The notes under the pieces are model-generated. The model was not told the origin of the DNA, ran no database searches, and saw only the letters and a program-made list of their open reading frames with translations. From contig URTW01000038.1 in assembly GCA_900550815.1 (NCBI GenBank), forward strand, positions 1 to 13,275: a stretch of DNA of 13,275 nucleotides, given 5' to 3'. The stretch comes from an uncultured Collinsella sp. (GTDB taxonomy: Bacteria; Actinomycetota; Coriobacteriia; Coriobacteriales; Coriobacteriaceae). Each line of letters opens with the position of its first letter. The first letter of the stretch is position 1. Made by a program: the position numbers and the translations under genes. This document shows, piece by piece, positions 11,685-13,255 of this stretch.

Positions 11685-11775
11685 GGAGAGTTGTCCGAGC
11701 GGCCGAAGGAGCACGATTGGAAATCGTGTAGGCGTCAAAAGCGTCTCCAGGGTTCAAATCCCTGACTCTCCGCCA
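11685..11775 (+). tRNA. tRNA-Ser (anticodon GGA)
   Basis: A 91-nt serine tRNA. The acceptor stem GGAGAGT pairs fully with ACTCTCC, followed by discriminator G and an encoded CCA. The anticodon stem CACGA/TCGTG encloses loop TTGGAAA, giving anticodon GGA for codons UCC and UCU. A long variable arm (AGGCG/CGTCT stem) is characteristic of tRNA-Ser. The T arm is CAGGG-TTCAAAT-CCCTG. Confidence 0.97.
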
Positions 11776-11783
11776 GTTAATTC

Positions 11784-11814
11784 CAAAGCAGGCCTTCGAG
11801 CCTGCTTTGTTTTT
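11784..11814 (+). terminator. Intrinsic terminator between the two tRNA-Ser genes
   Basis: A perfect 10-bp stem CAAAGCAGGC/GCCTGCTTTG with loop CTTCGA, followed directly by TTTTT. The next tRNA starts only 10 bases after the T-run. Confidence 0.9.
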
Positions 11815-11823
11815 ACCCCACGC

Positions 11824-11914
11824 GGAGGGGTGGCAGAGTGGTTGAATGCGGCGGTCTCGAAAACCGTTTGGCCTGTATAAGGTCACGAGGGTTCGAATCC
11901 CTCCTCCTCCGCCA
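11824..11914 (+). tRNA. tRNA-Ser (anticodon CGA)
   Basis: A 91-nt serine tRNA. The acceptor stem GGAGGGG pairs with CTCCTCC (one G-U pair), followed by G and an encoded CCA. The anticodon loop CTCGAAA, on stem GCGGT/ACCGT, gives anticodon CGA for codon UCG. The variable arm is long and the T arm is GAGGG-TTCGAAT-CCCTC. It has no visible promoter of its own, since a terminator lies directly upstream, so it probably depends on readthrough from the first tRNA. Confidence 0.97.
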
Positions 11915-11984: not shown

Positions 11985-12064
11985 CCAAACGTGTACGTCA
12001 GCCTCCAAAAACGACATTTTTCGACATCTTTGGAGGCTGACGTACACGTTTGGATTGAGCTCAC
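11985..12064. repeat. Left copy of a 77-bp flanking repeat, forming a 25-bp perfect hairpin
   Basis: Positions 11985-12009 and 12029-12053 are exact reverse complements (25 bp; arms begin CCAAACGTGTACG and continue TCAGCCTCCAAA), with a 19-base loop containing CGACAT twice. The copy continues inward through ATTGAGCTCAC to 12064. Positions 11988-12064 match the reverse complement of 13175-13251 at 72 of 77 bases. It lies 10 bases beyond the stop of the nuclease-like gene. No U-tract follows, so it is not a plain intrinsic terminator. Confidence 0.93.
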
Positions 12065-12074
12065 GGGAGCGACA

Positions 12075-13082
12075 CTATTCGGAAGGTGCCTCCTCGTCTC
12101 GCATGCTTTTCCAGTTGCGGATAAGTGCCTTGCGTAGTTCGTTTTGTTTTCTCTGGTACCCGGTGTCGGTACAGCGAGGCATGCCGAGTGCTTCGCGAAT
12201 GTTGTTCATGGCGCGGTGAAAGGCGAGCTGACTACTGAACTGAGCCGAAGTGAGCGTAACGATTCGATATCCCATTTGGGAGAGGACGGCCTCTCGCTCC
12301 GCATCTGCTCCCTTGCGCTCGAGCTCATCGTGAAAACCGCCCTTATATTCGATACCGAGCTCCCTGCGCTTATAGGTCACGAGCGCATCGATTTTGAGCG
12401 TTCGAGCTTTGGCGCAATGCCAGAGACGTTGAGGGATCTCGAGCAGTTTGTTGAGTTCGATACCTCGTATGCCAACGCCGCCTTCGCTTGTTGGGAGCGA
12501 GAGGGCGATTGCCGAAGCGGTCTCCATAGGCGAGGCCGAGTGATCGTAGATGTGCCTGAGCGCGAGCCGTGCACGTGTGGCACCGGGTTTGCCGGGGTGC
12601 CGATCGAGCAGTTCGGTTATTTCATCCTTGGAGGTGGTGGCTAGTTGCTCGGTATAAGGGTCGGCGGGATTGAGCCTCATGCGATAATCGCCGCAAACTT
12701 CATAGCCATATTCGAGATATTCGATCCTATCCATCCACTCGGCAGCGAGCACGAAGGCGAAGGCTTCGTCGGTGATGAAGATTCCGGGCGTCAACTCGTT
12801 AATATGCTCGTAGGGAAGATTTTGTCCAAGAATGTGGCAAACGACGCCTTTGGTACGAATTCGCTCAAATTCGAATACAACCGCGATATCGATAGTCTTA
12901 AGCATATCGGACGGAATGCCGCAGTCGGTAAGGGCCTGTCGTATGCGCGCAACACGTTGCTGGGTGGAGATGCCTTGTGCGCCTATCTGGTAGTCGTGCC
13001 GCGCAAGAGACTGAACCAAATTCTGGGGTGCATGATGGACAAGCCATGCGGTTTTATGCGAAATGAGAACAGGGGTATCCAT
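12075..13082 (-). CDS. Probable PD-(D/E)xK nuclease-like protein, DUF559-type C-terminus
   Basis: A 335-aa protein resembling a multi-copy Coriobacteriia family that I know only as hypothetical. Residues 1-130 (SHKTAWLVHH, then LPYEHINELTPGIFITDEAFAFV, GYEVCGDYR) resemble the N-terminal part of AbiEi/DUF559-type proteins. A conserved-looking SASPMET is at 182-188. The C-terminal part fits a Vsr/DUF559 nuclease fold: Asp232 in KIDALV, Glu245-x-Lys247 in GIEYKGG, His251, and Asp260/Arg263, followed by MGYRIVTLTSAQF. Catalysis is inferred. The ATG at 13082 has GAGAGG 6 bases upstream. The base composition is less G+C-rich than its neighbours, suggesting transfer. It converges with the tRNA genes and is enclosed by inverted hairpin repeats, which may be its substrate, its regulatory sites, or unrelated. 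Confidence 0.75.
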   Translation of the reverse strand: MDTPVLISHKTAWLVHHAPQNLVQSLARHDYQIGAQGISTQQRVARIRQALTDCGIPSDMLKTIDIAVVFEFERIRTKGVVCHILGQNLPYEHINELTPGIFITDEAFAFVLAAEWMDRIEYLEYGYEVCGDYRMRLNPADPYTEQLATTSKDEITELLDRHPGKPGATRARLALRHIYDHSASPMETASAIALSLPTSEGGVGIRGIELNKLLEIPQRLWHCAKARTLKIDALVTYKRRELGIEYKGGFHDELERKGADAEREAVLSQMGYRIVTLTSAQFSSQLAFHRAMNNIREALGMPRCTDTGYQRKQNELRKALIRNWKSMRDEEAPSE

Positions 13083-13102
13083 TAAGGGCCTCTCGCTCTG
13101 AG

Positions 13103-13167
13103 CCGGTATCCAACTCTTATGTCCGTTGAAGTGGGGAAATATACCGGATGTGAGTAAATCAACTCAC
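13103..13167 (-). promoter_or_regulatory. Upstream region of the nuclease-like gene with two inverted repeats
   Basis: CCGGTAT (13103-13109) and ATACCGG (13141-13147) are an exact 7-bp inverted repeat, and GTGAGT (13150-13155) with ACTCAC (13162-13167) an exact 6-bp one. TATATT on the minus strand, inside this region next to the ATACCGG arm, could be a -10, but no good -35 is placed before it. The repeats look like operator sites, possibly for autoregulation. Confidence 0.4.
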
Positions 13168-13174
13168 TCATGCT

Positions 13175-13255
13175 GTGAGCTCAATCCAAACATGTACGTC
13201 AGCCTCCAAAGATGTCGGAAAATGTCGTATTTGGAGGGTGACGTACATGTTCTGG
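13175..13255. repeat. Right copy of the 77-bp flanking repeat, imperfect hairpin
   Basis: Positions 13186-13210 pair with 13230-13255, with one mismatch inside the stem and a one-base irregularity at the outer end (TTCTGG instead of TTTGG); the loop is again 19 bases, with ATGTCG repeated twice. It is the inverted counterpart of 11988-12064. Its stem has A-T where the left copy has G-C (ACATGT against ACGTGT, changed in both arms), so the pairing has been kept. It lies 93 bases upstream of the nuclease-like gene's start. Confidence 0.93.

Follow-up and report, generated by a model that had tools for sequence, protein, structure and literature searches.

What is a nuclease-like gene doing between two inverted copies of one hairpin? 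The question is raised by a 13,275-nt stretch of DNA (the window) from an uncultured, Collinsella aerofaciens-like Collinsella sp. (assembly GCA_900550815.1, contig URTW01000038.1), in which two inverted hairpins (69 and 63 bp) enclose a single open reading frame (ORF) of 335 aa. An initial annotation likened the arrangement to a REPtron, the unit formed by a REP-associated tyrosine transposase (RAYT) gene and its repetitive extragenic palindromes (REPs). Our analyses lead us to favor, with somewhat better than even confidence, the view that the window unit belongs to a family in which nucleases are paired with palindromes. Such a unit would be analogous to a REPtron but based on a nuclease of unrelated origin, which binds the inverted-repeat element that goes with it. 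At the level of sequence, each bracketed paralogue has its own repeats, with further copies dispersed for many of these repeats and the compared solo sites apparently old; the arms of the units in one genome (G024) are kept while their interiors drift; and, at a given chromosomal site, the genes between two copies may be there in one genome and missing or inverted in another. Binding, cutting and the driving of exchange by the nuclease are what we infer from association, fold and phasing.

The repeats reported by the initial annotation, opposite in orientation and hairpin-forming around one gene, were confirmed by a repeat search, by folding and by comparison with relatives. Each arm measures 77 nt, and 72/77 positions (94%) are complementary. 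Element 1 lies between tRNA-Ser(CGA) and the 3' end of the nuclease gene, and element 2 belongs to the same hairpin family in the opposite orientation (Table 1). Folded as single-stranded DNA, the window hairpins had z-scores of -9.0 and -9.7, with 0/200 shuffles folding as well for each hairpin, and a search of the window with Rfam at gathering scores matched the tRNAs and nothing else. The gene has a hairpin on each side in 7/7 GTDB relatives returned (protein 87-99% identical), and the arrangement is therefore not an assembly accident; the pair was likewise found at this locus in 9/9 genus genomes carrying the gene (L058-L066). No GT(A/G)G head was seen beside the palindrome when the two hairpins of the window were inspected at their ends.

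Domain and fold comparison also upheld the claim that the enclosed protein is a PD-(D/E)xK-type, Vsr-like protein and not a Y1 transposase: the Y1 domain (PF01797) was not found in it, and its best fold match was Vsr-like. In Pfam, the window protein matched only MTES_1575 and DUF559, both below the curated cut-off; at E<=0.1, DUF559 and MTES_1575 matches were obtained for 22 and 19, respectively, of 26 members. It thus shares the nuclease domain class of the DUF559/MTES_1575 proteins but falls below their curated cut-offs and belongs to a family that is largely confined to one bacterial class. The D, E, Y, H, D and R of its signature were invariant among 26 aligned family sequences, with G248 nearly invariant, and these are presumably the catalytic residues; a loose motif search gave a match in 80/80 fetched members, misplaced at least once (L108). 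The closest solved catalytic fold to this Vsr-like domain with conserved acidic and histidine residues, found with a second structure aligner, is that of I-Bth0305I (3r3p), with a sequence match of E 0.91 only. We take I-Bth0305I to be a homing endonuclease of the EDxHD, Vsr-type family. The same aligner placed model residues 1-179 on residues 64-195 only of AbiEi (6y8q), an antitoxin of a type IV toxin-antitoxin system, so that the N-terminal part folds like the C-terminal domain of AbiEi; the N-terminal winged helix-turn-helix (wHTH) of AbiEi is not present, as the nuclease protein begins where it would end. A literature abstract names EDxHD as a homing endonuclease family. Foldseek returned nothing from the PDB at E<=1e-3, whether the complete model or its N-terminal domain was the query, and a viral structure library gave one match at E<=1e-3, to an uncharacterised Bacillus phage protein, the others being weaker. 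By the structural model, an AbiEi-antitoxin-like domain is joined in this protein to a Vsr/homing-endonuclease-like domain. Inspection of the ORFs of the window and of L001, without a profile search of the neighbors, recognised no AbiEii (DUF1814) toxin. When the window gene was compared with its relatives, ratios of nonsynonymous to synonymous substitution (dN/dS) were 0.10-0.16 in four more divergent comparisons and 0.20-0.53 against the three closest relatives, where few changes were present; these values speak for purifying selection on the gene.

Table 1. Positions of the nuclease gene, its hairpins and the adjoining tRNA genes in the window.
Feature	Position	Strand	Details
Nuclease-like gene, orthogroup A (OG-A)	12075..13082	-	335 aa
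Presumed catalytic signature D232...E245-Y-x-G-x-x-H251...D260-x-x-R263	12294..12389	-	26-sequence alignment
Hairpin element 1	11985..12053		69 bp; 25-bp stem, 25/25 paired; 19-nt loop
Hairpin element 2	13186..13254 (core 13189-13251, 63 bp)		Upstream of gene; 22-nt arms 95% paired
Left arm, 77-nt inverted repeat	11988..12064	+	Hairpin plus ATTGAGCTCAC tail
Right arm, 77-nt inverted repeat	13175..13251	-	
Two tRNA-Ser genes	11685..11914	+	Conserved boundary of locus, adjoining nuclease gene locus

Members of the nuclease family were found in 43/43 genus genomes and 110/197 sampled genomes of the class Coriobacteriia, with many diverged paralogues per genome. Among sampled genomes of the phylum, 31/296 had a family match at E<=1e-6; 21 of these had strong matches, all within the class draw, and 10 had weak matches only (best E 5e-10). 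On these matches, the family is largely confined to Coriobacteriia. To cover its diversity, we selected 80 member loci manually, taking 40 each from the genus list and the class list (one of the latter was not scorable), and compared the 800 bp upstream of each gene with the 800 bp downstream by blastn-short at E<=1e-4, using the match coordinates. A flank-shared repeat was present for 33/79 scorable members versus 2/167 other ORFs of the same loci (Fisher p 7e-17, the loci not being fully independent). When the upstream flank of one member was compared with the downstream flank of another, 25/6162 pairs matched, 0 of them within one genome, and most of the 25 reflected homology of coding sequence, a repeat shared by related members or a match of short length. 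Under slightly altered settings, earlier runs had yielded 13/40 versus 0/99 (with the ORF on the wrong strand for three targets, L101, L104 and L110) and 19/39 versus 0/72. The pairs were distributed as 11/24 stronger genus members, 3/16 weaker genus members and 19/40 class members; more than half of the members are therefore without a repeat pair by the uniform test. The idea of a REPtron-like tie between the nuclease and its own hairpin survived the comparison, flanking repeats being found elsewhere in the family, and is supported by it. As to the inverted orientation stressed by the initial annotation, the best pair was more often direct (20) than inverted (13) among the 33 members.

The two groups in which the association was discovered lie outside the 79 and are bracketed by two different hairpin families: OG-A, the window type, in 9/9 cases and OG-B (355 aa) in 8/10. 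Of the OG-B misses, L074 had no pair, a second hairpin lying farther from the gene in its genome, and L076 was cut by a contig end. Repeats also differ between paralogues within one genome, both for OG-A and OG-B and in G024, G029, G041 and G167 (two or more each). There was no global co-variation of protein and repeat similarity (rank r 0.003; 994/2000 permutations at least as high as observed), in a test in which the L059 row was translated from the wrong strand, affecting 35 pairs. Two further groups, OG-C (417 aa) and OG-D (456-482 aa), are maybe very divergent alleles of one locus (L088-L091, L098-L100) and occurred together in no genome of the genus member listing. They share a similar downstream hairpin (CATATGAACATGCGCTCATATAA), which was not counted as cognate because it is present in other genus genomes too. 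At L103 (G041), arrays of a ~20-bp unit (ACTCAGCACTGACA) stand on both flanks of the nuclease gene, their inverted order around a central loop making a very long imperfect palindrome.

Copies of the repeats are not restricted to the flanks of the genes. A joined query of 16 repeats had matches in 12/12 genomes and, among the matches listed, copies beyond the gene flanks were found for OG-A, OG-B, L092, L093, L094, L096, L103, L108, L123, L125 and L127, with no dispersed copy among them for the L105 repeat in G028. OG-A-type arms occurred in 22/43 genus genomes, compared with 0 for a reversed-pattern control, corresponding to about 2-6 elements per genome (half the arm count); OG-B arms were also found in 22/43, many of them near the gene, and G016 showed an 82-bp unit in nine copies. 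The copies inspected were mostly intergenic according to crude ORF calls. A hand count showed no excess of solo hairpins in genomes carrying OG-A. Two solo sites, X (considered below) and Y, where a loose pattern found the hairpin in 17/22 genomes, with one more diverged and G034 keeping only part, are common to many genomes and hence look old, clearly so in the case of Y; solo hairpins, for which the initial annotation proposed a search, do exist. Across 53 distinct OG-A-type sequences, stem positions 6, 7, 12 and 13 use two pair types each (GC25/AT20, TA31/CG10, CG35/AT17 and TA46/AT2, respectively), and a G.G mismatch is frequent at position 10. As these hairpins had been preselected for at least 14/18 paired positions, only the change of pair type counts as evidence, and not the paired share. 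The stem symmetry could also arise by arm-to-arm correction of quasi-palindromes.

In G024, a pattern search found 39 arms, forming 19 convergent pairs with one left unpaired, and 0 in the control. The pairs measure 172 (3), 181 (9), 182 (4), 191 (1) or 192 (2) bp. These lengths cluster with a periodicity of about 10 bp (Rayleigh R 0.95 for 10, 0.89-0.90 for 9 and 11), reached by 0/200,000 uniform-deviation draws when the units are taken as independent, an assumption that equal-length units may violate through shared descent. Such spacing suggests two duplex DNA sites held by one protein assembly. The ends of 13 aligned units are 92-94% identical and the middle 31.5%, and no pair of interiors among 16 distinct units matched by BLAST at E<=0.01. 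Mean interior identity was 0.309 versus 0.275 after shuffling, with the two highest values (0.408 and 0.392) exceeding the shuffled maximum of 0.379, so that traces of a common origin remain. The G024 nuclease gene lies between two units, one of which is overlapped by 70 bp by the ORF called at its earliest start. In G026, 5/5 units are 166 bp long, and the units of G026 and G016 retain more of their interior than those of G024. No flanking duplication of at least 6 bp was found in 16 G024 units, with 4-5 bp in two. We rejected insertion sequences, transposons and miniature inverted-repeat transposable elements on the grounds of this result, of the dissimilar interiors in G024 and of the occurrence of OG-A at the same locus wherever seen. 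Terminators were rejected as well, as the hairpin sequence is gene-specific, no T-run was visible by eye at the ends and the G024 arms are ~125 bp apart.

Allelic states were compared at three loci, where some genomes carry the hairpin alone and others carry it together with cargo. At the tRNA-Ser locus, 9 of 24 loci were filled, 4 had a solo hairpin (L166, L174, L176 and L178), 8 had no hairpin and 3 were uninformative, and sites without the gene, which the initial annotation proposed to look for, therefore exist there. The nuclease gene was inverted relative to the flanking DNA in 3/9 filled loci (L170, L171 and L175), and an identical remnant, derived from one end of a hairpin, is kept at 7/8 hairpin-less loci (L177 was not displayed). 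With regard to homing, what was seen comprises allelic states only (filled, solo and scar). Site X has one hairpin in eight other genomes; in G014, it has a 4.2-kb segment with an ATP-binding cassette (ABC) exporter and a YgbA_NO gene, exactly bounded by two direct copies. The third locus was compared in 14 genomes and is referred to as dus-HTH (we assigned the names dus, helix-turn-helix or HTH, IS256-type and attC from recognition). Cargo lies between two detected hairpins in 10/14 and beside one full hairpin in two (G004 and G022), while the hairpin is solo without cargo in two (G027 and G032). The cargo includes a ribbon-helix-helix (RHH) gene in 11/14, a 428-493-aa gene in three (G010, G011 and G022) and Sir2/macro genes in G014 and G010; Pfam supported RHH and Macro, the Sir2 match being weak. 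The order in G010 is Sir2/macro genes, hairpin, 428-aa and RHH genes, hairpin, and no hairpin was detected there beside the dus gene. The displayed pairs at site X and the dus-HTH locus are direct repeats. IS256-type sequences are inserted at the dus-HTH locus, and in G008 an OG-B hairpin has an IS256-type element inserted into its loop (L286:6229-7806). A second, unrelated palindrome (GGGGACGTTCTT.../...AAGAACGTCCCC) often stands beside the dus-HTH hairpin (L289, L291, L293, L298 and L412-L417), so that two palindrome families are nested.

How does this arrangement compare with known systems? In the available text of PMC2817692, REPtrons are described as locus-bound genes delimited by their palindromes, which are sometimes concentrated nearby. 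The nuclease units are similar, as far as the accessible parts of PMC2817692, PMC8266576 and PMC8049555 describe REPtrons, in that the gene lies between two palindromes of its own family and stays at its locus, and in that the same palindromes are over-represented, are dispersed between genes (sometimes mainly nearby) and keep pairing despite substitutions. They differ in that the protein is AbiEi-like plus Vsr-like and not HUH/Y1, the pairs are direct or inverted, ~2-20 copies were seen compared with the >100 REP copies given in the portion available of PMC2817692, the G024 arms are widely spaced in helical phase around dissimilar interiors, and non-nuclease cargo can lie between copies. Since the Y1 domain is absent, the nuclease/palindrome unit is not a REPtron, and the resemblance is one of logic, not descent. 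The catalytic fold resembles that of I-Bth0305I, but the nuclease gene is not inside an intron and its elements lie on both sides and elsewhere. According to the accessible text of PMC7319586, the promoter of AbiEi contains 23-bp inverted repeats to which AbiEi itself binds, its monomers being proposed to meet via the C-terminal domain. The nuclease shares the fold of that domain, in its N-terminal part, and a link with inverted repeats but differs in its missing wHTH, its added nuclease domain and its elements on both sides and dispersed. Lastly, there is a likeness to integron cassettes with attC sites. In integrons, a folded palindromic site bounds exchangeable cassettes. Here too such a palindrome bounds exchangeable cassettes in solo, single and tandem states, whereas each site family here goes with one nuclease. 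Among titles and abstract openings, with most subscription papers outside this search, we found no description of repeat-flanked DUF559/MTES_1575 nucleases or of Collinsella palindromes.

We propose a system that works like a REPtron in logic and like a homing endonuclease in chemistry. The nuclease would recognise, in duplex form, the paired arms of the element that belongs to it, and two protomers would hold two arms together through their AbiEi-like domains. Its Vsr/homing-endonuclease-type domain would then nick or cut at or near the element, and the break would be repaired by recombination with another copy of the element. Such repair would keep arms and copies alike and spread copies locally, and any segment flanked by a pair of copies, the nuclease gene foremost, could trade places with a solo element carried by another chromosome. 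As a tentative extension that we hold with clearly less confidence, these units may represent a new class of cassette system, in which each nuclease owns a palindromic attachment-like element and solo elements are docking sites for cassettes (nuclease, Sir2/macro, RHH or ABC exporter) swapped by nuclease-provoked recombination. The outcome would be integron-like with no integrase or transposase (integrases were not searched for).

Somewhat unlikely in our estimation is that the hairpins serve as recombination sites, of an integron-like or a purely homologous kind, at which RecA or an unlinked recombinase exchanges cassettes and the nuclease is one cargo of several. This would account for the ABC exporter that the same hairpin family brackets in G014 and the solo hairpins at that site in the eight other genomes, for the RHH, 428-493-aa or Sir2/macro cargo at the dus-HTH locus with its solo states in G027 and G032, and for the direct orientation of the pairs displayed at both. 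However, it leaves unexplained why one nuclease family sits between different repeats family-wide. The promoter binding of AbiEi (in the available part of PMC7319586) and the steps of ~10 bp in G024 would instead fit elements that are operators of an AbiEi-like autoregulator with a nuclease domain, the dispersed copies forming a regulon looped in helical phase. We consider this unlikely, given that elements also occur downstream of the gene and that the 13 G024 units with called neighbors (crude ORF calls) comprised 10 convergent, 3 tandem and 0 divergent arrangements.

A defense or self-recognition unit, in which the elements restrain or guide their nuclease and it attacks DNA lacking or carrying them, seems to us improbable. 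The many diverged paralogues per genome, the AbiEi-like fold and the defense-like cargo between same-family hairpins (macro domain, weak Sir2 match and RHH) are in keeping with it, yet PADLOC gave no match for the window protein and, by inspection only, no partner or modification gene was recognised beside the window gene. Least credible, and largely rejected, is that a RAYT encoded at another place in the genome moves these hairpins as it would ordinary REPs, their association with the nuclease being incidental. A PF01797 gene is indeed found in 37/43 genus genomes, but 0/30 fetched RAYT loci had OG-A/OG-B arms, and dispersed nuclease-linked repeats occur in G019, G024 and G026, three possibly incomplete genomes with no PF01797 match at E<=1e-4. 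Flank repeats were shared at 6/25 scorable RAYT loci and were of other sequence; this is a rough yardstick, because the ORF picks were crude (longest overlapping) and PF01797 also catches IS200-type transposases. Those six PF01797 loci with flank repeats of their own are L310, L317, L319, L321, L324 and L326, several of the repeats being of the GGGACAGGCA type.

A partnership between an enzyme gene and its own dispersed palindromes was, in the literature that we found, described only for the HUH RAYT proteins. With an unrelated nuclease reaching the same arrangement, the reasons for the origin and persistence of such partnerships could be tested independently. In addition, the different palindromes of its paralogues offer many candidate cognate protein/DNA pairs for studies of specificity. 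The nuclease/palindrome units are also candidates for driving the exchange of genes between strains of human gut bacteria.
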